64,000 bases of DNA. It comes from Sipunculus nudus. Lineage: Eukaryota; Annelida; Sipuncula; Golfingiida; Sipunculidae. A model generated the notes under the pieces. That model searched no databases, was not told the origin of the DNA, and saw only the letters and a list, made by a program, of their open reading frames with translations. Shown piece by piece: positions 10,219-37,657 of the stretch. The first letter of the stretch is position 1. Each line of letters starts with the position of its first letter. A program made the position numbers and the translations under genes. The DNA lies in contig CM049307.1 of NCBI GenBank assembly GCA_026874595.1, forward strand, positions 90,895,830 to 90,959,829, given 5' to 3'.

Positions 10219-11377
10219 GGTACTGCAATCACATAGATATGAATGAGTCTCAAGTAAATTAATAGAATGACGTAAGTCATCGAAATACGTATCAATTCGT
10301 ACAAAAAAATAACATAAGCATCTAACATGCCTCGTCTCCCGTTTTAGTTCTGCCGTTGAAGATATACGACCCTTTTATAAAAAAAAGTTTTTTTTATGGT
10401 CAACTTACTTAGCAAGTTTACGTAAAAATCTAAACACGAATTACTGCAGCAAATCTGTTTGAAACCATATACGTAAAGCCACACTGGTGAACAATCGATA
10501 ATGAGAAATCCGATAAGGCCGTCTGAATAGTACTCTAAACAATTAATTACATCATACAAATACAAACCGGATTGCTTTACACGGACAAGGGATGCTCCCT
10601 TAAGTGCTGCTCCTCCAGGGTCACCTACTTCAACATCAGGCCAAGTCACCGTGTACCCTCATTTTAAGTTTAATTTACTTTTTCGAAACATCCTATGTAC
10701 AATTTACCTTTCGCCAGAGACGAAATGACCTTGGTGTGAGAATACCTAAAAAAAGAAAGTAGTTTGTCCAAAAAAATATTTATTTAATCACTCTTCGTTT
10801 TTATCTGGGACGTAGGAGCAACTTTGTCCATGATGTAAGTGGCCACCTTCGGTGACGTCACTGCTTGGGTCAGCTGATTATCCTGTAGGCTTGCTGCATT
10901 GGTCACCGACAAACTTATTCTCGTGACCAGGCTGATATGAGCGTTTCAATTGATCCGGGCCTGTTTAATCCTTGAATGCAAATTAACTCTAAAGTACCGT
11001 AGTTGAAAAGAACATTTTCAATTTAACAGACATTGATTAATTCGAAGTTTGGATTCTAAGGTCAGAGGTCAGGATTGCCAACTAATTTGGCGGCTCACAT
11101 TCCAGCGTTTATCAAAATCGATTGGTGTATCTCTGGCCGGCTGAAAGTATAATGCCGGGATTAATGCGAATTGTCGGTAGTTTTACGTGAAAAAAAAATC
11201 TAAAATCGGGTTAGCGATCATTGATCAATAAGTTATTATTCAAAACAGGTTTTACACAATATCTGAATTCTATAAAACATGTTTGGGATCAAAAAAAGTT
11301 TTCCATGTATGACTTATTTTTATACGGACATGTTCATGTTCAGTCCTAGTTCTCTTGAATAAGGATGAAGTTAATTA
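10218..11377. other. No recognisable gene
   Basis: Unique-looking DNA. The frame at 10344-10649 (minus, 101 codons) has no recognisable motif. Confidence 0.4.
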
Positions 11378-15510: not shown

Positions 15511-16445
15511 ACAGCTGGGCAACAGATGACTTGTGAAACGAACAACACTGATAAAGGTTTGAAACTGAAATATATATTATCTAAAAACTGTCTCTTTACC
15601 TGAGTTGGGTAATGCATGCATTTCCGTTGGCCTTTGAAAATGTCACATTTGAATTTGAATGCAGAGCTACCATTAACTGTGCATTTGCGTTTAAATACAG
15701 AGCGACAATTTGCATTTGATTTTTGACTGAAAATGCAAGGAGTTCTTAAAATGTGGATACTATTATGTAGGTGAAAAGAGAGTTAGTCAATTCTCCATTG
15801 CAACCAGAATCGAAATCATAACAGAGGTTATGAAGATATTTGGAAGCCTAAATGTATCAGCTTAATTGTTGCTGCCCTATATGGTTAAAATGATATGCAC
15901 ATTCAAAGGTCTAATATGAATTTGAAGCGACTACAGTTCGACTTTAAGTTTTCATTTTGTCATAATTTCTGGTTGACGTGTGTAACATATGTGACCAACC
16001 AAGGATACAGTGATAATAAAATGGCTATTATTAGCTATAATCTGATCCTCTGCCAAAAGGCCCGCGATTCTCCAATAAAATATTATCTTCTTTAGATTAC
16101 GCTGGCAGCCAATCTATAGACAACCACTGGTTTAATCGGTTCATTAATGAAAGTCCTCGGTCAGGGTCCCTGCGTTACCAGGAAATCCGTGCATGGGGTT
16201 GGCCATTAAAACTTACGGTCAGCTAGAAAATAGAATAGCGAAGCGTTTAATGATGTTTCAATTATTTACGGCGACTATTAGACTGGGAAGTTCATGACTT
16301 GAAGGCAGAAATGATGACAATTATGTCAGACCTAGATATCTGTTCCACAGTTTAGTTCACTAAAATGTGTGTTTTCTTGAACTTAAGAACTTAAGCCAAG
16401 AATCTAAGTCCTTTATAACTTTTTGATAAGAAAAGAAAAAAAAAA
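15511..16445. other. No recognisable gene
   Basis: Unique AT-rich sequence. Nothing assignable. Confidence 0.4.
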
Positions 16446-18133
16446 CTAGACGACCAGAGGTCGAGCGCTTGCCGGATCTTGAAATGACAGACAGATGGAC
16501 AGACAGAACATATTGTGGGTTTTCTATTATTTGAATGACCCTCAGCGTTTGCTGAGAAGTTGTGGCCTGTAAAATGACATATCAGACAAAACAACGAGGA
16601 AGCAGACAAAGCTGACCACAAAAGACGAACAGACAGACATACTGACACATCTGTGATAACAGATTACCAGACAAAAGGGCCGAAGGTAAGGAAGAGCAAA
16701 ATTAGCGATAGTTTATGTAGATAAGGTTTATAATTTTGGAGATATGGCCAAAACATGATATGTGGGGGAGGTGATGGTGCAGCGCCCCCTAGTGGCTATA
16801 TCCGGAAAATGAAAAATTTGTTTTGAGATATTAGTGTAACACATAAGATGTACCAGTTTTAAAAGGATTCCTGAAAAAACTGTGGCCTGTAGAATGCTAT
16901 ATATGAGACGCAAGAACCAGCAAGTAGGCGGATTTGAGGACAACTGACAAACAGACAGACACACTGACAAAGTGACACAAGATTGAGACCAGATGACATT
17001 ACTAGGTCATGGAGAAGACTCAGGGAAAGAAAATAAGCCATAGTTTCTGTAATTGAGGCTTTGGGTTTTAGAGATATGGTCAATATAACGATATGTGTGT
17101 GAGGGTCATGTGCAGCGCCACCTAGCGGCCATATCCGGAAAATGAAAAAAATATTTTGAGATATTTCTGTAAAATATAATATGCATCAGTTTTCAAATGC
17201 TTCTTTAAAAACTGTGGCCTGTTGAATGTTATATATGAGACGCAAGAATCAGCAAGCAGCCAAATTTTAGGACAACTGACAAACAGACGGACACACTGAC
17301 AAAGTGACACAAGATTGAGACCAGATGACATAAGTTTATGGAGAAGACACAGAGGGAAAAAATAAGCTATAGTTTATGTAATTGAGGCTTTGGGTTTAAG
17401 AGATATGGCCAATGTAATGATATGTGTGTGAGGGTCGTACGCAGCGCCCCCTAGCAGCCATATTAAAAAAAATGAAAAAGCAATTTCGAGATACTAGTGT
17501 AGGACTTATGATATGTCAGTTTCAAAAAGATTCCTGCAATAATGTGGCCTTTGGCGCAAGATGAATAAAATCTCGAAATATCTCTATTCACGAGATATTT
17601 TACGAGATACTGCAAGACTTGTAATAAAATCTTGTAGTACTAGTTGAATGCTACCTGATGCAAAAATTAGATCACTCTAGCTTTAAAACTGACAAAGTTA
17701 GAAAAATAAGACCCCTTATTTTTGAATATCATGACCTTTCCCCCAAAATTTGTAACCATGGTTACGGCAAATTTAAGTCAGCTACACACCAGATGACAGG
17801 CCTTGGAATGACAATTAAAATGAGCTATAGTTGAAGTAGATACGACTAACAGTCACAAAGATATGAAGAAAAAACCGTTTTGAGAAGTTTTGATGACCTT
17901 GACCTTTGACCTATTTTGACCAAAAACAATAGGGCACCTAGAAATTTAATTCTCCATCATCTCTGAAAGTTTCGAGGTGATTGTGGCAAAATTGTGGCCA
18001 GGAGAGTGCAGACAAACAAACCAACAAACAGACAGACAGACAGGGAGACAGACAGACAGACAAACAGACATACGCAACTGACCAACATGCTTGCCGAAAT
18101 CTTTGATTCCGGCAAGCAACAAACAAGTGTTGC
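16446..18133 (-). mobile_element. Helentron-like non-autonomous element with about 330-bp monomers
   Basis: Read on the minus strand from about 18133. A 5' hairpin CTTGCCG...CGGCAAG (18090-18116) is followed by a GTCT microsatellite (CAGA on the plus strand, about 18018-18075), unique sequence, then about 3.3 tandem monomers with a period near 330 bp (GTGGCCTGT landmarks at about 16562, 16882, 17213 and 17541; CAGCGCC(A/C)CCTAG landmarks at about 16780, 17113 and 17443). Near the 3' end the 5' motif GCTTGCCGGA recurs inverted (16467-16476), then a hairpin CGACC-TCT-GGTCG (16451-16463) and CTAGTTTT. This order of inverted subterminal repeat, hairpin and CTAG fits Helitron/Helentron elements. 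It has no Rep-helicase gene. Confidence 0.7.
16480..17570 (-). repeat. Tandem array of about 330-bp monomers inside the Helentron-like element
   Basis: About 3.3 diverged copies. Each has a CAGACAGACAC-type stretch, CACAAGATTGAGACCAGATGA, an AGATATGGCCAA block, CAGCGCCACCTAG and ATATCCGGAAAATGAAAAA. Overlapping minus-strand frames at 16391-16648, 16728-16970, 16859-17083 and 17122-17331 are shadows of these monomers. Confidence 0.85.
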
Positions 18134-18342
18134 GTAATAGCTACTGCGGCCTTAAAGCTTATCTCTATGGAAAACAACTTTCATGCGCGCATGCGCAATG
18201 TCCGCATTGGTCCTCTGCTGCGTTTGGGTCCAACGAGCCAGCATCGTGAGTTTTATCAATGGAAAGAAAAAATCTTGATATTCAGACAGGAGTCTCGTTG
18301 TAAAAGAGAAGGTAGATATATCTGGTTTTGTAATATGAGGTA

Positions 18343-18400
18343 CTAGCTGATAAACCCGGTATACCGGGCTTTTTACCGGGTTTTGGGAGATGTATTAATT
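18343..18400 (-). mobile_element. Helitron-like 3' end (hairpin plus CTAG)
   Basis: On the minus strand the palindrome CCCGGTATACCGGG (18355-18368) is followed by TTTATCAG and then CTAGT (CTAG at 18343-18346). A GC-rich hairpin about 8-12 nt before CTRR-T is the canonical Helitron 3' terminus. A further CCCGGTAAAAAG stretch lies just inside. The body would extend to higher coordinates, but I cannot place its other end; the frame at 18399-18668 (plus) is unassigned and may lie within it. Confidence 0.45.
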
Positions 18401-21247
18401 GACAGGATTATTGGATCCTGTTTTTATTAAAAAATTAAAAAGAAAATATAGATTTTCAGTGTTTTACAGTCTCAATAAGATAAGTACAAATATTTTGTTA
18501 ACACTTATTTTGTGGCGCTGTGCTCGTGGCAAGGAATTCATACACCGGTATGTTGACCTTGAGACCTGGTCAGTGTTGATTTTTACATTAATTTGCGAAC
18601 CTGAATGGGACGCGGGGGCACTCCGGTTTTCGATGACCTTTGCCTGGTTACTATTTTTCGACGATTGAAGTACAGGTTAATGTGAGGAAGACATTAATTC
18701 AACATAGCTTAACTTAACCTCAAATTGAATCGCAGTAGGAAGACATGAAAGATGAATTAAATGTACGTTTCAAGGCAAGGAAACTGTTCCTGAAGAGAGA
18801 AACGGAAATATGCATACCTCGTTAGTGGCAGAATTGGACCCAAGGGGTGTCCAGGGGGTCGGTCCCCCTTTTCAGCTGCAACCTTTTATAATTGTATCAG
18901 ACAAATGTTGAGGCCTGGAACGTTCGCCCCCACCCCACCCCAACCCTTTTCCGGAAATAGGGACCTTGTATTGGGTTTTGGGTTGAACCCCTCCTTTTGG
19001 TAAAGCGCACCAGAGTCATATGTTTTTCAGATTGACTGAGCCTTTGTCAAATGCCAGCCCAAACATGCATAAATCCTCACTGAAAGCAAGGTTATTCATT
19101 TGCACGGTAGTCCTTAAATTGGCTTAATTCTGGGCATAAGGTGACCACAAAGAAAATCCGGTCTTTGCCGAAGGCAGTTCGGCTGTTTTCGATGATAGCC
19201 TCCGCTCATATCAGAAAACACGCAAAAATCACTTAAAATGATGTGTACATTAAAAATTATTGATTCTAATATCGGCCATGTCTGAGGGAACAATAACCTT
19301 TAAAACGAGGTATGGCACAGTATCATACGCAACGCGGTTTCAGAGAACATTGCGAACAGAGGTGGACCGAATTCTTTTTATAAGTAATAGAAAAGAAAAA
19401 CATTTTTTTTGTCGCTATAACAGACCCGAACACCTGGTGACCTACGACGCCAATAGGTGTCGCTAGTGTAGAAGCAAAGGTCCGTTAGAATCATTAATTT
19501 CACGGAGAATAAAGCATCTTCAGAGAAAGTAAACGCTATGTATCGTAGATTCAAAAGTTCAATTCTCTGTTCACCAATATCACTGGATTTAAAATCTCAG
19601 TGCTGAAAAGTAACATTTTGTTCTTGATGAACATCTCTTGTGGATGTATATATTATACCGTTTGTGACAGCTTTCTAGGTTTTAATAACATGTGTCTATT
19701 ATATATCAAAACGACTGGAAAACATTCTTCGTCTCAGAATAAACGTTCTCAAAATGATTGCTCTGGTTACCATATTAAGAGTTTCAAGTAGAAATTATTA
19801 CTTAAAATGGCGTCGTGTCGATATACGTCTCTACTGCGCGCTTTCCGCAATGCCCCAGTAGATACATTATTAACGTAGATTCATTTAATAATCAAGCTTC
19901 TTGTCTTTAAAAGCTCCATCAAGGAATTTCAAGCGAACTCTAAGTTTTTAAAACATTAAACTCATGACTATAGGTACAGCTGGTTTGGAGTGAGTTTGCA
20001 ATTATTTCATATTTAATGGTTAATGTTACTCGTTATAAAGGTAACGTTAGTTCTGTGCTATAAGCACTCCCAGGTACCCGAGTCAATTGATGCCTTGTTT
20101 TCAAAGTCAATTTGCACTCAAATACAAACTCGTGTTACACACTTCTTTGACAAACCACAGAAAGTTTAAAGCTATCTAATTGTTAAATGTAAAAGCTGCA
20201 GTTTACGATTTCGTGTAAATACGGGCAATATTTACTTGCTTTAAATACGTGGTCTACACAACAAGGCGTGAATCTGTGCAGTCAAATATTTTCTTTCAAA
20301 TCTGCACAGCCGCTATCTATTACACTGAACGGTAATGTAGCGAAAATTAAACCTTTTTAGGTATAAAACATTTCTAATAGGTGTTAATAAAATCATTGCT
20401 AAAGATTTTTCGTTCCATGCTTTGTGACAAATGGGGCGTGTATTTTGTCGGCTCTACTGCGTATACTGATCATTTTTCACCTGTTCATTCGCTAAAGTTT
20501 ACTACCAATAAAAATACTGTCAAATTTGCTCTTCCTATTTTTACGTTGGGTTGTTAAAATCACAGCTGCATTATTTGACCTATCCCGTTCACCAGTTTCT
20601 TACGGCAGTATATAACCATCAAAATTTCATCATTATTTAGCTTATGTTTCATGTGAAAATTTGCATTAAATTGCTCTTAACTAGATCGAAATCCTCGCTC
20701 TCCAGCTACTTTTTCACAGCGTAAATGCCGCCTATAATCCTGCTGCTTGCTAAAGAACGAGGCCATAATCCATTCTCTATGTTGTTTTCTTATATTTTAA
20801 TACCCGGTGCTATATGTGCTGATTACCTGTTACATGCAGGTGGACTGCGGGGGAAAAATCTGTTGTTATTTGTAATCTGTCGATGGAAGACATTATCCAG
20901 AACGTGACCTATCATATAAAGGCTTTTAAAGCTGGTGAGTTTCCGGTGCATGTGTTCTTGTTGCCACGGCGTGAGTTCAGTTTTTATATTCTGCGTGCTG
21001 TTTCCTAGTATAACGATCGATTTGATTGGAAATTACTATTCCTGCCCCATCACATGCATGCATGTTCGAAATTCATGAAATACTAGGCAAGGACTCTACA
21101 CAACCTACAAGAAACCAAGATCTCAGGGACATAGGTATCCCATAAGAATTGACTCCTCAGTTGGATTCTTTTAGTGACTGGCGCAATGTGAAACTTAGAA
21201 AACTGTGGGGTTGCCGTCGGCGTCTAGAACATAACATAGATAAACAA
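18401..21247. other. No recognisable gene
   Basis: Mixed DNA. Part may belong to the Helitron-like element ending at 18343. Frames at 18399-18668, 19260-19466, 19600-19791 and 20725-20907 have no motif I recognise. A GGGGG/CCCCC-rich segment at about 18845-18960 is not assigned. Confidence 0.4.
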
Positions 21248-21453
21248 CCAGCTTCTAAGGTCTAGAGGGAGAGCACAGGGCTCAAAGCCGGGGGGGGGGG
21301 GTCATGTGTTCAGATCTCCGCCGAGACGGTGAGAATTTTCACGGTCGGCCCCGATCCAAGGTGAACGGTCTGCAAAGCTTAATGGGGAAACTGTTCAAAC
21401 AGTCGTGTTTCACCCACAAACAGTGCGTCTTTGGAGGGTTCCTCGGTGTTACG
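21248..21453 (+). mobile_element. tRNA-derived SINE, main family, copy 2
   Basis: The head carries GGGAGAGCACAGGGCTCAAAGCC and the B-box remnant GTGTTCAGATCTC, followed by GGTGAGAATTTTCACGGTCGG, GGTGAACGGTCTGCAAAGCTTA and a tail GTCTTTGGAGGGTTCCTCGG. A 12-base G tract (21290-21301) has expanded between the A and B boxes, where the other copies have only one or two G. The order matches copies 1, 3 and 4. Confidence 0.75.
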
Positions 21454-22300
21454 ACCTTGCAACAGGGATGATCACACCGGAATACAAAATGTCATGACAG
21501 AAGCGAGTGTACAGCCCTGTTACCTAGTCCTAAACCGGAATGGAACTCAGCAGATACACATACTTATATTAAGAATCAGATAAGACGACATAAAAAAATG
21601 AAAGCGTTTGCCTCCACAAAAAATAAAGATGGGTTAACAGGTAAGTGTTACAACGGAAGCATAGATGAATTAAACAATAGGAAACTGTCGCTGAATTTAA
21701 CTTATAAAGATAATAATTCACAGTTTTAATGACTAATTTTGTTAGAAACGAAATAACTACTTACAAGAATGTCTGATACTGGTAACGACTTGCCACTAAA
21801 TTTCCGAGCACATGTTATTGACAAATCGTGTCTGTAATTTCTCAATGGGCAATATTTATTTAATATCTGGGCATCCAATCACCGAAGCCCCGGCACATCC
21901 TTTTAACAGTTAATAGAAGTTAAATTGTTGGAGGTCTCTCTTGTCTGTAATAATCACAATTCACTGCACGAGTACAACTACGGCATCCAATCAACGTGTG
22001 TAAGTAAGAGCCCTTATCCTCAATAGGGGGAAATCATGGCCGCTGTTAAGTACCAATGTAAGCCCCCGGACACGACATGCGGCTGCCATTGATGACACTA
22101 CAGCGCAAATACAACGACCCCGGCCTAATCGAACCGAACCCGTCCATTGGAGCTGGACATGATTAGCTGACTGGTTGGTCGGCAAGTGGCTAGGACAAAA
22201 GCTACGTTATATGCGGAGAACAATTATTTTGGTTTATATAGAAGCCTATTCTGTACCTGAAATTTTTGGTTTTGCCAGATGCATTAGCGCTGTCGGGATG

Positions 22301-22303
<3 letters not shown>
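21454..22303. other. No recognisable gene
   Basis: Unique-looking DNA without assignable features. Confidence 0.4.
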
Positions 22304-22366
<63 letters not shown>

Positions 22367-22668
22367 AGTGCCTGCTTATACTTTTGACTGACTACCTATC
22401 TCCCTTTCTCCTCCTAACTCCCGTCTCTCTATCCATCTCTCTCACTGTAGCGTTAGTTCGGCCCTCAGAGGGTCGACGACTAACGTACTCAACTTCAGAG
22501 TCATGTATTCTGTGTCTGTGTCTGTCCCTCTGTCTGTCTCTGTGTCTCTTTCTGTATATTGGTTTCTATTTGTCTCCTTATGTCCAATTCTCAGTCCTTC
22601 TTTTATTCTTTGTTTGTTTCTCTCTTTTATTGGTTCTCTGTATATCTGTCCATCCAACTACTACTATG

Positions 22669-22738
<70 letters not shown>

Positions 22739-22858
22739 TTCTGACTGTCCCTAACTCTGTCTTTCAATGCCCCGCCTCCATGTCTATCGTAATTTTCTCT
22801 ATGCTGCTTTTAAAATCTCTAACTGTCTCCCCTTTTGTCTTATATATATATATGTATA

Positions 22859-22916
<58 letters not shown>
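22304..22916. repeat. Compound microsatellite: (CT)n, CT-rich spacer, (CT)n, (AT)n
   Basis: Two pure CT tracts (about 22304-22362 and 22670-22734) are separated by a CT-rich spacer, with an (AT)n tract carrying two G interruptions (about 22841-22916) downstream. The frame of 177 codons at 22384-22917 (plus) and the overlapping frames at 22503-22754 and 22559-22744 encode only Ser-Leu and Tyr-Ile runs and are artefacts. Confidence 0.95.
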
Positions 22917-22919
<3 letters not shown>

Positions 22920-25900
22920 GGGGTTTCAGAATTCATAACTGCTAGTTTCTTCATGAAGTATAAACTTATGTAAAAGTCCATTTTACGAATATAATTTTTG
23001 CAATTGAGTCGACAGAGAGTAGCTAAATAATGAAACAGGATAAAAGCGAACGTACCATCTGTATATTATATGAAGACATCATACATAGAGGCTTCATAAA
23101 GCGCCGGGTACCAGTCAATAATCAGAGGTGAACTTTGACCCCAAATCTGCAAAAAATACAGATTCACCCTTTCATAGAACAGGTAGTTTATTAGGTCATA
23201 TAGGCAAGATAACATATCTAATTTAGTGGGGTCACTGGTTCCGTTTTATTTTATTATCCCCGCCAATACATTTTATTAGGTGTCTCACTTGTCTGGCCGC
23301 GGGATTATCGATACCATTAACTCAGCTCAAGGTTAGATGCAACGATCTAATATTGGCGGGAACCAGTCTAGATTGCCTTAATCAACGATTAATACAGTGT
23401 CGCGGCAGTGGGTATTTAAACAATAAAATGTGCCGTGCGAGGTCACCTTCAGGACATCGCCCAGAGTATAAAGTAAAAATCCTCGCGGCCAATAGGCGCA
23501 ACAAAAAATAAGCTTTATATCCAACAAAGGATAGATAAAAAAGAGATATATTGGCATTATATAACACGTTCGCTGCTCCCACCCCTTAAAAAGCATCTTC
23601 AAACTAAACCAGGGTTTATCCTTATCACCCCAGAGGAAAGACGAACGCATCAATCATTGAGTAATATATCTTACCTTGTTAGAACCAGACTGGTATTACT
23701 GACATCGGGAGTTCAGGGGAGCGAGAATTCTGCGACTAATCCCGAGGTAAAAACGTTGTTAACCTGCTTGTTATGTAAACTCTTCTCATACAGGCAATAA
23801 TATTGACTCTGACCGCCAAATCCTCGGTGTAAAAGATTACACCGTAATTGCCATGGGGCGAGTGGCGGGACCCGGCGAATATTTCGGGTCCTCTAAACAA
23901 AGACTAGCGGTGTATGTGGAATTGTTTATTCAGGTGGACTAGCCAATCCTAATAGTTAAATACTGTGGGCCACTGACTCGGCACTGAGAACGTGTCCAAC
24001 ATGTGCCCCAGAAACTAAACTGGTGAAACTGTTATAAATAAATATCAATTAGCCAACGTGATTTGTTTATTAATCAGTTATCTAAAAATACCGTTATTAA
24101 ATATTTAGCGTGCATAATGCGTAATGCATGACTTGGAACACGCACGTTAAATCAATAACAAGTTCTGCAAGGAAAGGCAAACATGGTATGTCATACAACA
24201 TGTAATTACTGTAAGCTTAAAAGCACTAACCCCATTCATCAATTAAACATGTGGAAATAAAGCAGAAACCATAAACACAACCAAAATGCACGTATTTTAC
24301 CGAAAGAAAGTACAAAAATAAAATAAAAATATTTTTTCTTAAAAGTAAAGGTTGATAATTTTTAAAGAGTAATCAAATGTGAATATATCATTTTATGGTA
24401 TTTACACTAGTGTAGCTCATCAAGGCCTGGACGCATAATTATAAATATTCACGGTGGAGCAAATGATCGCGAACCCAGGAACAGGAACTGGCTGAGAAGT
24501 AACAGGGAATTCTCAACGTTACATAAATTACAACAGTTTTCCAGCACACGGCGACAGCGTAACCCGGTCGCACTGGAGCACCACGGATTATTCATAGTTA
24601 ATTTCTGAGCTTGTCTTCTTGTGGGGTTAATTTTTTTTTCAGTATTTGGCGAGGCTTCCATCAATAGAAATGATCTTACAATACAAAAGACATACAAAGG
24701 GTATAATCATTACAATGTGAATTAATTTTATCGCATATTATGTGCACAAATCTAATCAAAGTATATTGTTCGTCAATGGCAGACAAATGGAAAAATCTGA
24801 TATCGTTTCAGATATCACTCTTTGAATGCACACGATCTATTTCTTCTGGACTTCTTATTCACGAAGCATTTAATTTCGCGATAATTACCCTTTCGCAAAT
24901 ATCGCGAATTGTTAACCTTCGCTAATAAAAAGACAACCACAGTATCCTAGAATATTACCCGTTCAGGTTCAGAATATTTACATCGGGACAGGTCCGCCAA
25001 GTGTTCACCCGCCATTTTGCGATCGTTGAGTGTTTGGTATATTACGCTGCGATAGATCGTTTGCGAAATTTACCATGTAATGTCAGATTCTCTGGATTTA
25101 TGTTAATATGGAAAATGGCATCCCTTAGGACACACTTGGCATCGTTACTGAAGTTTAATAAAAATATAAATTTCAAAAGTGTATCCATAGAGGAGTTGTG
25201 TGGCAACGAATAAATGCCACTGTCAGTTAAAATATATAGATATAGAGTAAACCCATTATCTTAATATCATCTGGACAATTAAAAACACAGAGAAGACAAA
25301 ATTGGTGTGACTGACATTAAAAATCCTCATCTCTACCCGATTAATTTTCATGACATCCGTTGATATTCTATGGTTTATTTTAATCAAACTGCGATGAGTT
25401 AACAACAAATCCGCATGGATAATCACAATAACAGCCCATCACTGTAACCTAATCCTCAGGGTACGTGAGACATCCTAGTGGCCCGCCAATAGTACACGGA
25501 GGAACTCAGTTGGTATATACTAGTATATAGGTTAAAAGGAAAGTGAGGCCAAAGGAAAACTGCAAATAAACCCTTCCACCAGAGGCCGTTTCTACTCAAT
25601 ATGAACCTTTTCCAATTTGAAAATTTGAACTTTTAAATCAAAACTTGTAACATATCGAAGAACCACCATCTGTTTACATTGCACATGCATAAATGCTTAC
25701 AAAATATTACAAATTCCGTGAAGACATTACAACAAAAACACCCATGTTTATGAAATTTGCCCTGAAACAAAAATTGTACAACGTATTTGAACGGACCATT
25801 TGAACATTACCATTCTTAACATTTATACCCACGCCGATGTTATATTTAAGAAGCCCCGGTGGCATATTTTGATGCTCACAAACCCTATAGATATAACTAA

Positions 25901-26227
25901 CAGAGTCATATTCTTGTGAGTCTGCGCTGTGTGCTACAAATGAACAATATCCAAGAATCCAAGTTAGATCAGCCTTTGGGACAGCAGTGTGTTTACAATT
26001 AATTTAATAGTGGTCGATCATTTTTTAAATTTGTTTTTGTTGACGGTAACCGCCTCCATTTTTAATGCTAGCTTAAATTAGTATTGGTAGATTTGCTGAA
26101 TTCCATTCCGGTTTCGGACTACGTGACAGGGCAGTATCACACGCTTCCTCTAATGTTATACCCTGTTGTTAACCAGACCCGATGACCAATACCCCACCCC
26201 CTCTACCCCTTATCTGGGTCACACTAC
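22917..26227. other. AT-rich DNA, no recognisable gene
   Basis: No assignable gene or repeat family. Frames at 23378-23653 (minus), 24449-24697 (minus), 24740-24925 (plus) and 25001-25213 (plus) show no domain I recognise. Confidence 0.4.
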
Positions 26228-26432
26228 CGAGGAACTCCCGAAAGAAGAACTCGTTTTTGAGTAAAACAAGGCCGTTAGGCACGGCCTTCCCATTAAGCCT
26301 GCAGAACGCTCACCAAGGGTTGGGGTCGACCGTGAAAAATCTCATCGCCACTGCTGAGATACGAACTCACGATCTCCCGGCTCTGAGTCCTGAGCTCTAA
26401 CCCTGTATCATAGAAGCCGGTAGTGGTCGATA
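26228..26432 (-). mobile_element. tRNA-derived SINE, main family, copy 3
   Basis: On the minus strand: GGGTTAGAGCTCAGGACTCAG (A-box region), GAGTTCGTATCTC (B box), GATGAGATTTTTCACGGTCG, GGTGAGCGTTCTGCAGGCTTA and the tail TCTTTCGGGAGTTCCTCGG. It is the most complete copy, about 205 bp. Conceptual translation of its plus strand gives AEIRTHDLPAL, a peptide often mis-annotated from tRNA-like SINE heads, so the 72-codon frame at 26182-26400 should not be called a gene. Confidence 0.8.
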
Positions 26433-26740
26433 CAATTATTAAGACTGGCAGGTCTGAATAAGCCTTTGGGAAAAATTGGCTCCTGGTCAATTCATTCCGT
26501 GTATGAGAGAATGCTAAACAAACTCTATGTTGTTACTGAATGAATATTAGCGCGGTGAAATGTGACTGGATTTCGTCTTTCGTGAATCTTCATTCAGCTC
26601 CGTGAGTGACTTTATTTACTCTTCGTACTAATTTGTGACAGACTATTTGTCATCTGCACTTATCCGCATTCCCAACCAGTTTATCACGGCGTTAAAGCTG
26701 TGTTACCCAATCAGGTGATACGAAGCTAGTTTCACAAGGA
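26433..26740. other. No recognisable gene
   Basis: Unique sequence between SINE copy 3 and a poly-G tract. Confidence 0.4.
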
Positions 26741-26759
26741 GGGGGGGGGGGGGGGGGGG
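26741..26759. repeat. Poly-G tract (19 bases)
   Basis: Uninterrupted G run. Its length is prone to sequencing or assembly error. Confidence 0.95.
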
Positions 26760-29308
26760 TGTTTATAAGCAAAAAGCCACTCACACCCGTAAAGGGACCA
26801 ATTCCCAAACCATATTTATTAAATATACAGGGAATATGGTATTATGGATTTTGTCATTATTTGGTTCTTTAACTGTTTACTTTCCCTTATGCACAAGTGG
26901 AAATATGCTCTCACCGGGTGCGATCGGTGGCGCAAAAGCGTAAACATAGCGCGCACGCCACCTGGTGTCCGTAACGCGGAACTTGACACATCAAGATTTT
27001 TCAAACCCCTAACGGGCATTTCAGCTGCGTTTCTTTTTGTGTCCCTCTTCTTATTTTGGAATTGTCGCACATGCGCGAGCTCGGATCAGTGTTTCACTGT
27101 CTTGTTATGTTAACCAGAGAGTGGGCTGTGTTAACTAACACACAGAACCATAACAACGCATAAAAAGGTGACAGTTAGTCCTTGTACCGGGATGGTCTTG
27201 CTTGGAAGCATTTGTATTCGGCCTAACTTAAGTATTGGTGTGAGTCAATACACATTATTGCAACTATTTGTTTACCTTTAAATATTTGCGGCACAACAGA
27301 TTTCTTGAGCAATAAGTTTACGAAGAAGATTGGAGAAATTCCTAGCACAGCCACCTGTGTGTCGAAAATAAATTTAGGTTAGTTGTGAGAGAAGGAAAAA
27401 TAATGTATTGATTTTAGCCCTTGTCGAGTACTAGTGAACAAGTTCAATTTGTTGGCCTCTTAAAATACATATTTTTTAATCAGTGGCTCCCAGGAAAGTA
27501 GGAATTCTAATAAACTTATGACTGTCCTACGTTAAACCTACCACAGTCCTACGAATGATCCATGGCATTAAGTCCTTTCGACAACTGTCACGGGAAAACC
27601 CTTCTTCTACAATTCTGTCTTGCGAATGTCGAACAGATGTCATTTGATTTGACTTCCTTGGCTTATTTTCCCCCAACAGACGTATATAATGCATACGTTC
27701 TAATTGAATGCTTCTTAAGATTCATATTCCTAAACCAAGGCCTATCCCTTATGTCCTAGCCCTGTTAAAATCATACGAAAAAGAAGTGTTTGATATATGT
27801 GAAACGGGTATAAAAGCCATGTTATGCTTGAGGTACGGCAAGTTACGATCCGATGCGGCACGTTACGATACGATCCAATCGCATGAAGTGACGGCCTTTT
27901 GTATCTGATTGTGCGACAGTTACTGGCGTCTCGAAACTAATGCAATAGTCAAATCGATCGTAAGTTGCTTTCCGATCCTGTACTCAATTAGAAACAACAG
28001 GATCAGTCTACGATTTGTAAAACAGAAGGTTCATGACAGTCGTAACATGGATGGTGTATGACAATCATACGACCACATATGACTGCACGCCAGATGCTAG
28101 ACGAATCCTGCATTTACTTTTTTAACGGCTGATCCAGGACTGGGGCAACAACCTTGCGAGCTCCTTAGACCTCTAAATATTTTTTATCAGTCTCAGCTGG
28201 TATATTTAAAATGATAAAAAAAAACACCCAAACTGATTTTTCATCCAGTGACCAGGGATCGTCACAGCTGTTCTGGATAATTATGAAATTCGTTTACAGG
28301 AGATGTGACAATGACAAAACAATAAGGGCACACCAGCAATAGATAATGAAAGACTTATTAAAACTTTATAAAAATGTGTAATTCCCGACCACTTGGACGA
28401 GTCTTCATAAAGAGTCAGGACGGCATAGTGTCTTTTAGCTAACGATGCATTCTAAAATATATTCGTACCAAGTATTTTAAAGTTTTTACGTACCAAGCAC
28501 CCCAACATCCAAATTACATTTTTGTCACAAGCGGCCCCTGAGTCCGTCACTTCGGTTAGCAGATAATTGTTTTCCTCAAATTCTTTACAAAGGACTTTTA
28601 ATTGCCGGAGAACCTCATTCTTGCACTGATATGAAACTATTCAATATCATCAGAATACGTAAATAAAAATTTCACATATCTGACACTCTTGGCGGAACGG
28701 ACTTTCAAATCTTGACAGAACTTTCTTGGTACATTTCCTATGTCCTTAATATAGGTCATAACTTATCGATCTTCAGTGAGCTCTTGAGCCGGAGAATTTT
28801 TTATTATGTATATTTTATATAATTCTTGTCATTAGGATGGATGTATTCCCCTCAACTCTATTACAAGACGTATCACCGTCACACATATGCTTTAAAAAAG
28901 GATTAATATACAAAGGACATTTTCATTTTTTTAATAAATAAAAAAAAACTTCCATTATACATTCTAGCACACTATGGAGCAAAAATAGATAAAATCTAAA
29001 TTGAATCTTTTACGGGCGTTTATTTTCCTGCAGTCACTGATATATATTATAATATAAATGTATCACACGGAATTTTCCGCCCATTTGCAGTTAGTCACGG
29101 AGGTATAGGCATTAATAGACGTGACTCTAGTGCCTGGCCAGGTCAGTTCATGTATACTGACGTATATTATGAACACACTTTTTCCCCTAAGGGATATCGG
29201 ACGAATGGAGATTCGTCCATAATGAAAACATATATAGATAATATTTGTTTCCTTTTTATCGATAATGCTACAACATGAGCCAACTCCTGCTGAAGCCAAT
29301 ATAAATAT
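26760..29308. other. No recognisable gene
   Basis: Unique-looking DNA. Opposed frames at 26819-27070 (minus) and 26844-27113 (plus) overlap, and neither has a recognised motif. Short direct repeats of the type GTTACGATACGATCC occur near 27840-27880. Confidence 0.4.
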
Positions 29309-30158
29309 TGTTACGGAACCTAATATCAACATATCATGCAGTCGTGACAAGCCTAAATTTTGTTATGGAGATAAAAAAAATCAGATTCTGTAACACTAGG
29401 CAGCTGAAATGTCTAGGCGAATTAATAAAGAAGTCAGTGTTTCTTTGTTAACAAATAACTATAATTTATTCTTAAAACAACCCTAGCATTACGATAAACC
29501 AAATCAATACTATTACACAGTACAACAACAGTATTACAGCAAATCAATACAATCACACAGCATAAGAACAAAGTGCACAGTACCTGGTTACCACCACTGT
29601 AACAGCGACAACAAGTCCTTTATAACGTACAACCCAGATGAACATTTCACATAAATCGTCTCAGAGAATAGCAGTCCAATGTAATCACAAAATCAATCTA
29701 CTGTAATCCAAAAGTGGAATCCTGGCAGTGATCCGAAAGGTAAACTGAGGACTATATAAAAATCCGTTACAAATTTCAAAGAAAAGCTATAACTGCCGCA
29801 ATTATAGGAAAAGGTCCACTCTTCTGTGTCCGCTGGAATATTCTCTCACCTCTCTGTTTGGCTCTAAAACACAGCCCCTTATTTACAACTTTCATCTCAA
29901 GCCGAGAACTTTCCATTTCTTGAACAATCCAAAGAACCTAACATGATACACAGTACACACGCGTTACAGGAAACATCTAAAACAACATCGCTGTGTTTCT
30001 ACATTTCACGGTTCACACGTGGGCCGGCCCGGCTCGGCCAGGCGAGAAACCCCCAGACTAGCATGACCCCTGTGTTTACACGTCAGACCCCACGCGTGGG
30101 CCGGGCTATGCCGCCATTCACATGTAAGACCGCTGTATACAATAAAAAAGACATATTT

Positions 30159-30162
<4 letters not shown>
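29309..30162 (-). mobile_element. Solo LTR, copy 3, with ATAT target duplication
   Basis: On the minus strand it begins TGTTAAATATGTC (right edge 30162) and ends GGTTCCGTAACA (left edge 29309), 854 bp. ATAT flanks both edges (29305-29308 and 30163-30166), a 4-bp duplication of the Ty3/Gypsy size, although the right flank is itself (AT)n. It carries the family landmarks: CCTGTAACGCGTG, an AT-rich TATA-like GTAAATAAGG, AAGAATAAATTATAG with the poly(A) signal, and a conserved CTGACTTCTTTATTAATTCG block. No internal gag-pol or second LTR adjoins, which suggests LTR-LTR recombination. Confidence 0.85.

Positions 30163-30232
<70 letters not shown>
30163..30232. repeat. (AT)n microsatellite
   Basis: Uninterrupted AT tract of 70 bp abutting the solo LTR. 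Frames crossing it (29943-30242 and 30006-30290) are artefacts. Confidence 0.98.
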
Positions 30233-30236
<4 letters not shown>

Positions 30237-31387
30237 AAATAAATGCCAGTGTGTCTCCAATTCAGTTAACGAACACGACGTTAAGATCAAAAGAGATACA
30301 GAAGCAAAGGTGTGGGTCTCTGTAGTGCCTCTTCATTAATGCAACTTCTCTTAGCTACTTTGGTAGTGTAAATTCCAGCAGGTTCAATTCGCTGCCTATC
30401 CGTTGAAAATTTTACTTATCCCATATAAGCCGTTAAAGAGGCTGGTTTTGTAGTCTGGTCTCACTAAAAGTGCGTGTCTAATCTCAGTGTACACTTTACT
30501 AGTGATGTTTTTTTCGGACCTGTTCTTTCTTGATGCTTTTCCAAGCCGCCTGAGGAGCACATAACCCATGAAGCCATAGTAGGAAGATTATTCATTCTAA
30601 ATGTGTCTGTCACCAATGACTAGTACTCATCTAATCTGTATAAAATGGACTCGTCCTGGTGGTAATGGTTCCGCTGGAATGGGAGGGAACCCAAAACGTT
30701 GGGGGGGGGGGGGGGGGGGGAGGTTTTATAACAATAAATTGTCAGGAATTGAATATTCTTTCGCGAAGGGTCTGTCACAGCGCCATGTACCAGTAGCAAT
30801 TTTGCCCGTGTAACGTTTTGCGGGGGCCATCTATTTGGAATGAAATTTATCTTATTTATCTTCCAACCAATCAGATAACATACCTATAGGTGACATAACC
30901 CTCATTGATTAAGAAACACTTTTGTACAACATAAATACACAACTGTATACCACACATACACAAATGTATAACATAATTGTATGAAATAATCACGGTATTT
31001 TATATTATCTGGTTTTGCTGATTTAATTATATACGTAATTGATAAATTGTGTAATTTACAATGGTAGGAGCATTACCTTTGGGCTTGCTGCACAGCTCGG
31101 CCACACGGCCCGTGTTATACTGCATTGACCAGCTTCACTAAAATGAGGTCTTCCGCAGCACCGTGGGATGAGGGAGTCAGTTGGGTTCAGAGAATAGGGC
31201 TGGTTATTAAGGCGAGCAACGGATACGAGCGTGCTCTGACTTAACACTTCTGACCTTACAGGCTGATCATTTTCCCCGGCAAAATAAACGATTCCTTGAC
31301 CGCATGGGAATATTGTTTGGTTGTGACTGACCATGCTAAAAGGCCAAACAAGTACAACAAGTTGATCACTGCTCACTCAACATAATA
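30233..31387. other. No recognisable gene; contains a 20-base G tract
   Basis: A poly-G run lies at 30701-30720. The minus-strand frame at 31056-31376 (106 codons) has no motif I recognise. Confidence 0.4.
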
Positions 31388-31695
31388 TACATCTCTCTTT
31401 TTCTCTCTCAATTTTTCTCTCCTTCCTTCTGTCCTTCTTTCCTTCCCTTCTTCCCTCCTTTATTTCTCATTCTATCTCTTTTCCCTGAATTAAATTCTCT
31501 TTTTTTCTTACATTTTTTCTATCTCTCTCTTTTTTTTCTCTAACTTTCTCTCTTTTCCTAACTTTCTTTCTTTCTCTCTCTCTTTTCTCTCTATAACTAT
31601 CTCTTTCTTTGTCTCTTTCTTTTTTCTGTGTTTCTCTTTCTCTTTTTCTTTCTTTCTCTTTTTTTCTCTGCGTATATGTTTATTTCTCTGCGTAT
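31388..31695. repeat. Polypyrimidine tract, CT-rich
   Basis: About 300 bp in which the plus strand is almost entirely C and T, made of irregular CTTT, CTCT and CCTT units. Such strand asymmetry can form triplex (H-DNA) structures. The frame at 31609-31815 overlaps it and is an artefact. Confidence 0.9.
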
Positions 31696-33403
31696 ATTTC
31701 TCTGTTTAAATATATAAACCCGAATAAATTTTACATTTTTTTATGCAGAGCAAAAAATACTTTTGGCGGCCAAGCAAATTTCAAAGAGCAGCAGTTTATC
31801 AATTTAGTCATGTAAACGGTCAAAGGTCAACCCTGACTCAAGACACGGTCAGCGACTGTAGATAGGAGTTCACGAAATACGAGAAACATGTGAATATGGA
31901 TATCTTACAAGATGGCCACCCAATGAATGGCCTCGGGAATAAAAGACTCGCAGCAAGTTTATCTTTCACTTTGCGGTATTATTTCCAAGTTAGTTCTGTC
32001 TCCACCTTCATTATTTCTCAAACCTTTGCCCCGTCTGATGAATTTTTAGATTGTTGAAATGAATAAAAGATTTACGAGACACACTGCCAGGTAGTAATTG
32101 GAGACGAAACGAGGAAATTCTTTTATTTTATTACCTTGAGATAGGAAAGACACCACCTAAAAAGTTCTGCGGAATTCAATATCTGTAGACGGTGAGTACT
32201 GTATATGTCACACATTATTTTACTTTTTTTATTATTTTGTGGAAGAAAAGTCACTGCGCAAAGTTTCAAGATTTTTTAAAAGTTTAAGACAGACTATAAC
32301 GCAATAAACTGTTGTAGTGTCTTAATTATTTGAATATTAAGTAGGAAAGCCACCCTATAGAGAGCGCATAATGTTTATGAATTTGAAAAGATCAACCATT
32401 AAATAAAAAATAAACACTCTTTATTACTCTTTATTGTCTGTATGAAGAAAAGGCCAAGGTGTAAAAAAGTTTTTTACGGTTTAATGGCCTGAGATACAGA
32501 GACAATAAATAAGAGGTTTTACCGTATTCCGTTATTTGAATTCGGGAAGCAACGTCACGTACTTTGTCAGGCGTGCTGCTACCACCCCTTAGTACACAAG
32601 ATTGGTTTCTTAGGCACCGTGCGCGGCGATTTTCACATCCCGCATAAAAAATGTATTTTAAGTATAAACCAACTGATTTTGCGCTTCAGCCGCTCAAACA
32701 TTATTTTAAATTTGTATTTCAGTGATTTCGATAAAACTGCGTATATGTTTATATATATATATAATTATATTTATATATATATATATAATTTATTGTGAAA
32801 AGGTAAACAAAGATCGCCTTCTCTGACATATTCTGAGAACCTGAATACCTGAGAAACATGTATTTAAGATTTAGGCGATTTTAGACAACGAAGACAGGAT
32901 TCACTAGGATTCCTTGTGCCGCTGTTAAGAATTAAAAAAAGAGAAGTGATAGTTTTTCAATTCTATGCAATTCGTTTGAATATGATATTCAGTGATGTAA
33001 TCTTTTCGACAGCAGCCGGGTCCGAGTGCAACTCCAAGTTCAGACCACCAACGGATCATTACAAACAAATAAGATAATGTATACCGAACTTAGCTGTGTT
33101 TCAGGAGCTAAATGCAGTTAAACATTCAAGTAAAAATTATGTATTAAGTAAGATAGAAATAAAATTGATAATCTCAAATTTCCATTTTAGATTTCTTAAA
33201 TAAAGAGATAATCCAGGACGTAATCCAGTTATCTCAAACACAGGGTTATTAGTAAAATAAGGTCAAATGTTAATTTTACATGCAATTTACTGTTAAGATT
33301 AAAAAAAAAAATAAACGAGTTGCAGAGATTGCCATTAATTAATTATTATACTTAACAACACTGTAAACCCGCCCACATTTAACAATTGTTTGGTAATAGT
33401 ATA
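31696..33403. other. AT-rich DNA, no recognisable gene
   Basis: Contains an imperfect AT-rich block (about 32748-32790) with TATATAATTATATTTATATA text. Otherwise no assignable features. Confidence 0.4.
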
Positions 33404-33580
33404 CAGTGGAACCCCACAATTACGACCAAGTTGGGGACTGGCCAAAGTGGTCGTCATATAGGCGTTGTCATATTTGTAAAACTCTAAGTTCCCTTAATCG
33501 TATATTTGGGACCAAGAAAAATGGTCGTAATTGTCGGGCCGGTCGCAATTGTGGGGTGGTCACAAGGCGGGGTTCCACTG
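33404..33580. mobile_element. 177-bp MITE flanked by TA (pogo/Tc1-mariner-like)
   Basis: The left edge TA then CAGTGGAACCCC and the right edge GGGGTTCCACTG then TA form a perfect 12-bp inverted pair. It is 177 bp, the same as the MITE at 11378, and the internal text (ATTACGACC near the ends) is related. It has no coding capacity. The 113-codon frame at 33406-33747 begins inside it and reads through, so its N-terminal part is transposon sequence. Confidence 0.85.
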
Positions 33581-34279
33581 TACTTATTGTTGATTTATTC
33601 CAGGGACTTGAAATCACAGGACAGGTAGCAGAAGCAAACAACGCAGCACAGGTGTTATCATATTCATCAACATGTCTCAGCGAATATTCCATCAAAGTAT
33701 GGGATTCCATTGCAAGGGAAACGTTATTTATCAACAGAAATGGATGAGAAATTGTAAACCCAGCATTTCAAAGCCTCACTTCGTGTGTGGAACACAATGA
33801 ACGTCCATCATCCATAATAATTTGGAAATCCTAAACTCTGGATTACAAATAGTGAGAACATAATACAAGTCCTACGTCTTTTCAATCCTGTTAGAGAAAT
33901 GCAAACCTCATCTTTCGTTAGACTAATCACTTTATTCCAACCCGATGGACAGGGTTATTCTTTGGCCAGGTAAATGTCACTGTGACGTAACACAATACAT
34001 CACTTTAGATATTGCGTGTTGTACATTTCCTAGATGAACTTTTATATTGCAGTCAAGAAAATAGTTACCGCAGCTGAAGTCTATACGGCATCTGCGGCGC
34101 TCTAGACAAAACACCTTATATATGCATGTTAACATTTTAAAATAATTATCTAGTTATATATAGTATATTTTTATAATAATTACATAATTACATGATAAAT
34201 ACACTGAAAGTATAGTTTGATATTTCCATTATTAACTCAGAGCGGTTTTTAGACGCCTTGTAAAGCATCCTGTTTTTAA
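33581..34279. other. No recognisable gene
   Basis: The open frame leaving the MITE continues to 33747 without a recognised motif. The rest is AT-rich. Confidence 0.4.
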
Positions 34280-34357
34280 CTCAGCTGACTGAAAGCCATC
34301 TGAGCTATAGCGATCACCCTTTGTCCAGCGTCCGTCCGTCTAGCCGTCCGGCCGTCC

Positions 34358-36420
34358 GTTAACAGGGCACAAATCGTAACCACTTGCCCTGGAATCTTTT
34401 AACTTGACATCCAGGGAGGTACATGAAAAATTTCCTTAGAAACCTGAAATTATGTCTCTGCAACCCGTATTCTCCGAGCTATGGGTCTCCGAAATACCCC
34501 CCCCCCAGAATAGTCAGAAATTTGATGCAAAGGCTTCAGTATCTGAATAACTACTACCTTGATCACCATGATTCTTTGCATAAATATTGATCATGGAGAG
34601 TTCCGTCAGTTCCTGCACATTGGTGGCGCTACCTGTGTTTTTCTAAAACAGATTTTTTTCTCTATTTTTGATACCTTCAAAGAAGCTGTCATCTATTAAA
34701 AGGGAACAAATCATAACCTTTGGACCTGGAATCTTCTCACTTGTCATCCGGGTAGGTCCATAAAAAATCTCCTTGGAAACCTGAAATTAGGTCTCTGTTA
34801 CCCATTAACCTGTGAGCTTTGTGACTCTGAAGTAGCCCCAAGAATAATAACAAATTTGATACAAAAGCTTCAGTATCTAAATAACTACAACCTGGATCAC
34901 CATGATTCTTTGCATAAATATTGATCATGGAGAGTTCCGTCAGTTCCTGCAAACTGGTGGCGCCATCTGTATTTTTCTAATTTTCATGATTTTTTTTCTC
35001 TATTTTTGATACCTTCAAAGAAGCTGTCATCTGTTAACAGGGCACAAATCATAATCTCTGGACCTGGAATTTTCAAACTTGACATCGAGGGGGTCAATAA
35101 AAAATCTCCTTGGAAACCTGAAATTAGGTCTCTGTTAACCATATCCTCCGAGCTATGGGTCTTGTAAGTACCCCTCGGAAGAATTAAAAATTTGATACAA
35201 AAGCCAGAATATCTGATTAACTAATCCATGGATCACCTTGATCCTTTGCATGAATATTGATCATGAAGTGTTCCATCAGTTTCTGCAAACTGGTGGCGCC
35301 ACCTGTATTTTTCTAAGTTTACGAATTTTTTCCCCATTTTTTGATACCTTCAAAGAAGCTATCATTTGTCAACAGGGCACAAATCAAACTGTGGAAACAT
35401 GAGATTAGGTCTCTTTTACTCATATCCTCCGAGCTATGGGGCTTGTAAGTACCCCTCAGAAAAATTAAAAATTTGATACAAAAGCTCAAGTATCTAATGC
35501 ATTGATCACCATGATTCTTTGCATTAATATTGGTCATGGAGTGTTCCATCAGTTCCTGCAAACTGGTGGCACCATATGTATATTTCTAATGTTTACAATT
35601 TCTTTTCTCTATTTTTGATACCTTCAAAGAAGCTGTCATCTGTTAACAGGGCACAAATCATATTCTCTGGACCTGGAATTTTCAAACTTGACATCGAGGG
35701 GGTCAATAAAATATCTCCTTGGAAACCTGAAATTAGGTCTCTGTTAACCATATCCTCCGAGCTATGGGTCTTGTAAGTACCCCTCGGAAGAATTAAAAAT
35801 TTGATACAAAAGCCAGAATATCTGATTAACTACTCCATGGATCACCTTGATCCTTTGCATGAATATTGATCATGAAGTGTTCCATCAGTTTCTGCAAACT
35901 GGTGGCGCCACCTGTATTTTTCTAAGTTTACGAATTTTTTCCCCATTTTTTGATACCTTCAAAGAAGCTATCATATGTCAACAGGGCACAAATCAAATTG
36001 CTGGACCTGGAATCTTCTAACTTGACATCACGAGAGGTCCATGAAAAGTCTCTGTGGAAACATGAAACTAGGCCTCTTTTACTCATATCCTCCGAGCTAT
36101 GGGGCTTGTAAGTACCCCTCAGAAAAATTAAAAATTTGATACAAAAGCTCAAGTATCTAATGCATTGATCACCATGATTCTTTGCATGAATATTGGTCAT
36201 GGAGTGTTCCATCAGTTCCTGCAAACTGGTGGCACCATATGTATATTTCTAATGTTTACAATTTCTTTTCTCTATTTTTGATACCTTCAAAGAAGCTGTC
36301 ATCTGTTAACAGGGCACAAATCGTAACCGCTGGACTTTGAATTTTCTAACTTGCAATACGGTCTCTGATACCCATATCCTCCTCGCTAAGTACCCCCTAG
36401 AATAATTAGAAAAATGTGAA
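34358..36420 (+). repeat. Tandem array 1: about seven monomers of about 337 bp
   Basis: Monomers begin at GTTAACAGGGCAC-type text near 34358, 34695, 35033, 35368, 35642, 35977 and 36305. Spacings are 337, 338, 335, 274, 335 and 328 bp. The fourth monomer lacks about 60 bp (the GGACCTGGAATCTTCTAACT region). Monomers 3-4 and 5-6 are near-identical as a pair, so a 609-bp dimer was duplicated. Each monomer ends with CTGGTGGCGCCA-type text. Minus-strand frames at 34737-34952, 35319-35561 and 35928-36224 are equivalent shadows of the monomers. Confidence 0.9.
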
Positions 36421-36714
36421 ACAAAAACTCTGCGTTAGTTTCAAGAGAACTCCTCTGAGACCCTTGGACTGATCTTTCCGAAACCTAGAATAGTTTTTCC
36501 TTCACCTATGTTGTTGTGCTTAACAAAGACAGATGGTACCACCGGTAATCTTTTCTGTGCAGTATGAATCCGGGTGTCTTTTAGATAACAGCCAATATCT
36601 CAGGAGTGACTCAATGTATTGTGCTGAAAGTTTGCATGTCCATATATATTAGATCTCTCTCTATCTCCTAATTGCGACTGTATATCTGTGCATTCGATAT
36701 CTGTTCGTCTTAGT

Positions 36715-37480
36715 GGTTTTTCAATGTTTTAGGTTGAAATTGTATGTTCATAGATCCTCAACACCTACATCTCATAAACAAGACTGGTGGCGCCGCCTGC
36801 AGTCATTTTCGTGGCATTCATCGGTATATTTGCTTTTGGTGAAAATTGCTCATATCTCAGGAATGGTTCAAGATATTGATATGAAATTTGGCATGTCCAT
36901 CCATCTTGGAAAGTTTTCTGTTAAACTAGACATATGGCGCCACCCGGTTTTGTAGATTAAAAGCCCTTTTCTCAGGAGTGACTTGCCATATTTGCCTGAA
37001 ATTGTCCAAATTAATAGATCTTGGAATCCTTCATCTTGTACTCAAGCCTGGTGCAGCCACCTGCAATCATTTTCCTGTGGCATCCATCCGTACATCTGCT
37101 TTGGGTGAAAATTGTTGAGATGGTTCAAGGTATTGGTCTTAAATTTGGCATGTCCATTCATCTTGGACAATTTTCTCGTAAACCAGACAGGTGGCACCAC
37201 CTACCTTCCTGTTTCTTAAGAATAAATTAATTTTCTTTTCTTAGGAATGGTGTGCCGTATTGTCCTGAAATTGTGCATGTCCATAGATCTTAGCCTGCTC
37301 CATCTTGTACTCAAGACTGGTGGCGCCACATCTGCAATCGTTTTCCTGTGGCGTCCATACGTACATGTGCTTTTGGGGGAAATTGCTCATATATCAGGAA
37401 GAGGTTCAAGATATTGGTCTGAAATTTGGCATGTCAATCCGTCTTGGAGAGTTGTCTGGTAAACCAGACATTTCTAAGAA
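36715..37480 (+). repeat. Tandem array 2: about three monomers of about 265 bp
   Basis: Landmarks AATTTGGCATGTCCAT (about 36886, 37145, 37425) and CCTGCAATCATTTTCCTGTG-type text (about 36793, 37057, 37327) recur at about 260-280 bp. The CTGGTGGCGCCA motif is shared with array 1, which suggests the two arrays have a common origin or were recombined. Frames at 36713-36955, 37021-37230, 37247-37462 and 37305-37490 are monomer shadows. Confidence 0.85.
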
Positions 37481-37657
37481 CTCTTCATAAAATTCATGTT
37501 TTTTTTTGGCACTCTGGCAGTCATCTTCCTCATTGTTCAACATTCCTTGCATTCAGCTGAGCGTCATGGCCTATGGGCCACTAGTTTGTTCTAGAAACAC
37601 GTTTCCTTATCAGTGAAATTAGAGACCATAGGTCACCATTTATCACGGATCTCGGTA

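Follow-up and report, generated by a model that had tools for sequence, protein, structure and literature searches.

Two probable HINE families, unrelated in sequence and alike in end architecture, in a 64-kb window

The stretch of DNA analysed here (the window; 64,000 bases, 0 N) contains two units, A on the plus strand and B on the minus strand, each of which has the layout of a complete HINE-type non-autonomous element. Element A is composed of the following parts.

34280-37584, plus strand: element A, complete HINE-type non-autonomous element, CTAG counted as its last bases
34280-34288, plus strand: 5' subterminal inverted repeat (subTIR) CTCAGCTGA, 9 bp, perfect against 37553-37561
34299-34304, plus strand: short internal inverted repeat (IR), TCTGAG, able to pair through its CTGAG with the CTCAG in the subTIR
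34323-34358, plus strand: interrupted microsatellite of GTCC/GTCT type
34357-36302, plus strand: array 1, comprising six monomers (each about 335 bp) and followed by a partial seventh at 36303-36556
36779-37470, plus strand: array 2, about 2.6 copies with a period of 269 (tandem-repeat mapping)
37553-37561, plus strand: 3' subTIR TCAGCTGAG
37567-37580, plus strand: 3' hairpin, TGGCC-TATG-GGCCA
37581-37587, plus strand: 3' end, CTAG then TTT

The internal IR of A pairs over 5 bp only, and the resulting hairpin is weak (z -0.23). Tandem-repeat mapping gave array 1 a period of 336 over 34358-35386 and of 335 over 35389-36353, with about 60 bp missing from the monomer at 35366-35639. An intermediate stretch separates it from array 2, which was absent from the original prediction. 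Monomers 3 and 4 together are nearly identical to monomers 5 and 6 (601 identities, 8 mismatches and 54 gap positions), whereas the mean pairwise column identity of all six monomers is 0.771; a two-monomer unit has therefore recently enlarged the array. This higher-order duplication occupies 35031-36302 on the plus strand, and one of its copies is 54 bp shorter. The bases immediately flanking A are A and T if the left edge is placed at CTCAG.

The 5' end of A is present a second time in the window.

7855-8004, minus strand: truncated second copy of the A 5' end (subTIR, GTCC tract and start of a monomer), nhmmer E 3.4e-12

Similarity between A and this copy begins at the same 5' edge. Directly upstream of it, each has GTTTTTA and then a single base, A in element A and G in the truncated copy, so that the T run belongs either to the target or to the element. 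The 5' hairpin is not conserved in the copy (z -0.03). Allowing two mismatches, the A 5' motif ACTCAGCTGACYG matches seven times in the whole window against 1.16 expected, further matches lying at 2219-2231 (minus), 10867-10879 (minus) and 57075-57087 (plus). A SINE-like repeat adjoins the inner side of the truncated copy. This repeat of about 160 bp occurs four times, at 7691-7850 (minus), 26256-26416 (minus), 21252-21418 (plus) and 63686-63850 (plus), the other three copies matching the first at E 2.3e-24 to 3.3e-14. Inspection by eye raised the suspicion that it is of tRNA origin; ARAGORN detected no tRNA in the window, the SINE-like repeats included.

Element B has the same kinds of parts on the opposite strand.

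16446-18117, minus strand: element B, complete HINE-type non-autonomous element
18108-18117, minus strand: 5' subTIR GCTTGCCGGA, 10 bp, perfect against 16467-16476
18089-18099, minus strand: internal IR, forming a 14-pair hairpin with the subTIR region (z -5.65; 0 of 200 shuffles as stable)
18009-18070, minus strand: GTCT/GTTT microsatellite (tandem-repeat mapping)
16541-17550, minus strand: array of three monomers of about 332 bp, the third diverged
16467-16476, minus strand: 3' subTIR TCCGGCAAGC
16451-16463, minus strand: 3' hairpin, CGACC-TCT-GGTCG, with one T before CTAG
16443-16449, minus strand: 3' end, CTAG then TTT (T run)

Mapping of the B array gave a period of 332 over 17550-16698, and the body of the element sits between the GTCT/GTTT tract and the three monomers. 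B starts with GCTTGCC and is flanked by TT and T.

The original prediction held that two Helentron-like elements differing in sequence share one architecture, and the computed positions bear this out. The best BLAST match between A and B has an E of 0.2 and is not significant. In both elements, a 5' motif recurs inverted near the 3' end as a perfect repeat (9 bp in A, 10 bp in B), a GTCY-type microsatellite lies near the 5' end (34323-34358 in A, 18070-18009 in B), tandem monomers of similar length follow (about 335 and 332 bp), and the 3' end consists of a hairpin with a 5-bp stem followed by CTAGTTT. The predicted edges of A were retained, while the 5' edge of B had been placed 16 nt ahead of the inverted repeat, at 18133, and belongs at about 18117. 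With these small coordinate corrections, the observation is confirmed. A second inverted copy of the motif just inside the 5' end is strong in B and weak in A. From the start of the 3' subTIR to the end of CTAG there are 32 nt in A and 31 nt in B; the 3' subTIR lies 21-23 nt inside the element end with the hairpin after it, and 0-1 nt separates the hairpin from CTAG. The flanks are T-rich and, given the chosen edges, the exact abutting repeat is zero at A and TT at B.

The combination of these end signals was examined with a finder that calls sites where CTAGTTT and a GC-rich hairpin go together with an inverted repeat of 9 bp or more. It reported two occurrences in the 64-kb window, A and B only, while among 300 dinucleotide shuffles of the window one contained at least one occurrence and none contained two; the settings were picked after the elements had been seen, and these counts are therefore a check rather than a blind test. 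The single parts are common: CTAGTTT alone was seen 11 times in the window against 10.14 expected, and the stability of the 3' hairpins is unremarkable (z -0.82 and -0.74). With the looser tail CTWGTT, two more hairpin sites appeared, both lacking the inverted repeat. One of these, a hairpin with CTTGTTTT at 26270 (minus), sits in a SINE-like repeat and was rejected as a HINE end, as were the regions 22200-23500 and 61500-62500, picked out by weak microsatellite matches, where no HINE end was found by eye. Taken together, the joint end architecture at A and B is beyond chance.

Relationship between the arrays was sought at the level of the monomers. Hidden half-units of about 165 bp in the 332-336 bp monomers were rejected as not convincing: no self-shift peak occurred near half length, and for the two highest-scoring of eight half-versus-half alignments (two monomers, four phases), 7 and 17 of 200 single-base shuffles, respectively, scored at least as well. 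Scores of A monomer 3 against B monomers B1, reverse B1, B2 and reverse B2 were reached by 3, 2, 14 and 146 of 200 shuffles, and those of A array 2 against the same four by 101, 190, 49 and 156 of 200. Distant homology between A and B monomers was rejected on these results; since B1 scores alike on both strands and the shuffles ignore dinucleotides, the A-B score is not counted as homology. The 9-mers TGTCATCTG and AGGTGGCGC, common to A and B monomers, are by our own reckoning expected for two 335-bp monomers and are thus no evidence of relationship. Within A, the score of array 2 against array 1 was reached by 13 of 500 shuffles.

This anatomy fits the layout printed for HINE, DINE-1 and pearl elements in PMC7492417 and PMC4067079, in agreement with the known-class comparison of the original prediction. 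The HINE definition and the Rep-helicase-endonuclease partners are taken from PMC4067079. PMC7492417 describes 11 Cg_HINE elements from the Pacific oyster Crassostrea gigas, several of them unrelated in all parts, in the order 5' subTIR, IR, short microsatellite (GTCY, GTCC or GTCK in several), tandem repeats, 3' subTIR and palindrome, with two arrays in some and insertion into T-rich sites without target duplication. On a comparison of architecture only, A and B resemble them in the subTIR, GTCY/GTCC tract, arrays (double in A), 3' subTIR with palindrome, T-rich flanks and the existence of unrelated families with one layout, and in the IR clearly for B but weakly for A. Unlike the Cg_HINEs, A and B have monomers of about 332-336 bp (and 269 bp) rather than the 138-181 bp of 13 published clusters, and perfect subTIRs of 9-10 bp rather than the 11-15 bp usually printed (PMC7492417, PMC4067079). 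PMC4067079 assigns elements to the same Helentron family by identical subTIRs of at least 11 bp, and those of A and B, CTCAGCTGA and GCTTGCCGGA, differ.

Likeness extends to other members of the class. A and B share with HINE-Mo and DINE-1 (PMC4067079) the subTIRs, the 3' palindrome, the non-coding character and the T-rich surroundings; an IR, strong in B and weak in A, is found in DINE-1 as well. They differ in that the 3' subTIR ends 21-23 nt from the element end instead of about 38-60 and in having CTAG ahead of the T run, and the mite HINE-Mo has longer subTIRs (12-15 bp). The bivalve pearl elements CvA, CvE and CvG share structural characteristics although their sequences differ (PMC11136912), and A and B are like these and DTC84 in differing sequences, shared structure and tandem cores, as judged by descriptions only (PMC7492417, PMC11136912, PMC5139131). 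The main point of the original prediction, unrelated families with one layout, is therefore already in print in PMC7492417 and PMC11136912. With the Helitron2 elements of Fusarium (FoHeli, PMC5148889), A and B have in common an asymmetric terminal inverted repeat and the terminal hairpins found in some FoHelis; FoHelis, however, terminate with ATTTT or CTCCTGT instead of CTAGTTT, and some encode a Rep-helicase. A and B differ from published HINEs in degree: their monomers are longer, their subTIRs and 3' spacing are shorter, and CTAG precedes the T run.

A and B have no protein-coding capacity. Open reading frames of at least 100 aa in A and B measure 100-108 aa, none longer, and their best Pfam match scored 16.3 bits against a cut-off of 22. 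Across the window, Pfam comparison of 20 of the 29 stop-to-stop reading frames of at least 100 aa revealed no Rep or helicase domain and no domain above the curated cut-off, and Rfam at the gathering threshold reported no family. Four patterns compared with viral contigs, one of them also with genome contigs, gave zero matches to outside relatives, neither collection consisting of animal genomes. Elsewhere in the window, a 147-aa reading frame at 40076-40516 (plus) has a sub-threshold match to Pfam DUF7585 (E 0.0009; 19.4 bits against a cut-off of 27.4), and minisatellites lie at 47001-47473 (period 27, 17.5 copies, 96% matches) and 48357-49074 (period 32, 21.8 copies); open frames on both strands, the longest of 318 aa, overlap the former.

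Given these features, A and B very probably represent two separate HINE families, i.e., non-autonomous rolling-circle transposons of Helentron/Helitron2 type carrying satellite-like tandem arrays. From this class membership, mobilisation in trans by a rolling-circle Rep-helicase is likely, and it is plausible that one type of Rep-helicase mobilises both, as the original prediction proposed. A Rep-helicase encoded elsewhere would nick the element ends, recognising the 5' end through the subTIR and IR and the 3' end through the subTIR, hairpin and CTAG; rolling-circle synthesis would then replace the strand, and the copy would enter a T-rich site, leaving no duplication of the target. The sequence itself shows the anatomy, the lack of reading frames above 108 aa, the T-rich flanks and the truncated copy of the A 5' end, whereas the enzyme, the chemistry of strand transfer and the precise edges are inferred. 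Several observations run against the assignment: the 3' hairpins are not unusually stable by themselves, CTAGTTT alone is not enriched, the 5' IR hairpin of A is weak and that of its truncated copy is missing, the subTIRs are shorter than those printed, PMC4067079 gives CTAG as the terminus of Helitrons and the proto-Helentron, and the flanks of A are possibly A/T rather than T/T.

The last two of these observations bear on a narrower reading inside the same class, which we consider possible but doubtful: A and B could be derivatives of a non-Helentron Helitron2 or of a proto-Helentron, with a partner Rep-helicase that has no endonuclease. Helentrons and DINEs fall within the Helitron2 variant, with the endonuclease as the Helentron hallmark (PMC5148889), and Helentron and Helitron2 are separable only through the partner protein. 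Helitron2 elements likewise carry terminal hairpins and terminal inverted repeats that are asymmetric (PMC5148889), and the proto-Helentron has a 3' CTAG and inserts between A and T (PMC4067079), as would A with its edge at CTCAG. The GTCY microsatellite and tandem-array cores, in contrast, are described for bivalve HINEs of the Helentron class (PMC7492417). The ends of the proto-Helentron are otherwise Helitron-like (PMC4067079), and neither the TT/T flanks of B nor the G that precedes CTCAG in the truncated A copy agrees with insertion between A and T. A canonical Helitron (Helitron1) has a 5' TC, a 3' CTRR and a hairpin 10-12 nt before the 3' terminus and inserts between A and T (PMC5148889). 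The 3' CTAG conforms to CTRR, and the A flanks conform if the edge is at CTCAG; A and B nevertheless do not fit this type, given the GCTTGCC start of B, the hairpins 0-1 nt before CTAG and the flanks of B.

It is very unlikely that A and B are MITEs of a cut-and-paste superfamily, their inverted repeats being terminal repeats moved by a DDE transposase. Pearl and DTC84 elements of similar look have been named MITEs (PMC5139131), but PMC7492417 counts both among the HINEs; moreover, the 3' inverted repeat of A and B is subterminal, followed by the hairpin, and any exact abutting target duplication is no longer than TT and present at B only. Least credible of all is a coincidence of simple motifs around satellite arrays. 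Single parts are indeed common, as the CTAGTTT count and the 3' hairpin z values indicate, but joint occurrence twice in none of the 300 shuffles, the B IR hairpin and the additional copy of the A 5' end argue against it.

Each of the three B monomers also carries a CTCF-like motif.

17443-17457, minus strand: CTCF-like motif in B monomer 1, 2 mismatches to CCASYAGRKGGCRSY
17114-17128, minus strand: CTCF-like motif in B monomer 2, 1 mismatch to CCASYAGRKGGCRSY
16781-16795, minus strand: CTCF-like motif in B monomer 3, 0 mismatches to CCASYAGRKGGCRSY

The first 14 letters of CCASYAGRKGGCRSY are printed in PMC6746451. The three cores in B have the same orientation and are spaced about 330 bp apart; as they descend from one monomer, they count as one event. 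Exact AGRKGGCGCY occurs three times in A, three times in B and not at all in the other 59 kb (shuffle means 0.005 for A and none for B in 200 each, and 0.25 for the rest in 20). Allowing one mismatch raises the count in the window to 27, compared with an expectation of 7.41 (0 of 100 shuffles), and 8 of the 27 lie outside A and B. The motif was spotted by eye and post hoc, so that many motifs were in effect tried. In B, the 15-column window containing the core (CTAGGGGGCGCTGC) is tied for best conserved (0.911 against a mean column identity of 0.657), while the window exactly on the 15-letter motif scores 0.867 and 13% of windows score higher. Among the full monomers of A, four of six have the core GGTGGCGC and two of six (monomers 4 and 6) have GGTGGCAC, possibly through CpG decay. 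Conservation of the A core is not exceptional, since 20% of 10-column and 44% of 12-column windows score higher, and the 15-letter form within one mismatch has no match in A. Within two mismatches, CCASYAGRKGGCRSY matches 10 times in the window against 1.84 expected, and 7 of the 10 lie outside both elements; the motif is thus not confined to them.

That satellite-like HINE monomers spread arrays of putative CTCF-type (insulator) binding sites through the genome is a lead only, and an unlikely one. PMC7854359 and PMC10658182 describe a CTCF motif in the open chromatin of an annelid and molluscan CTCF orthologues, neither of them in transposons; among the matches listed for CTCF together with Helitrons, Helentrons, oysters, molluscs or satellites (titles and abstract starts, in a search with subscription literature mostly outside it), none reported such motifs in these elements. 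If true, rolling-circle transposons would be a source of directional, multi-site boundary elements, or the element itself would benefit from the factor bound to it. Such a role would matter more than the HINE finding because it would tie rolling-circle transposons to animal genome folding. As for the elements themselves, A and B support, in a further genome, the published view that end structure, not sequence, defines HINEs, and also the view that HINEs disperse satellite-like arrays.
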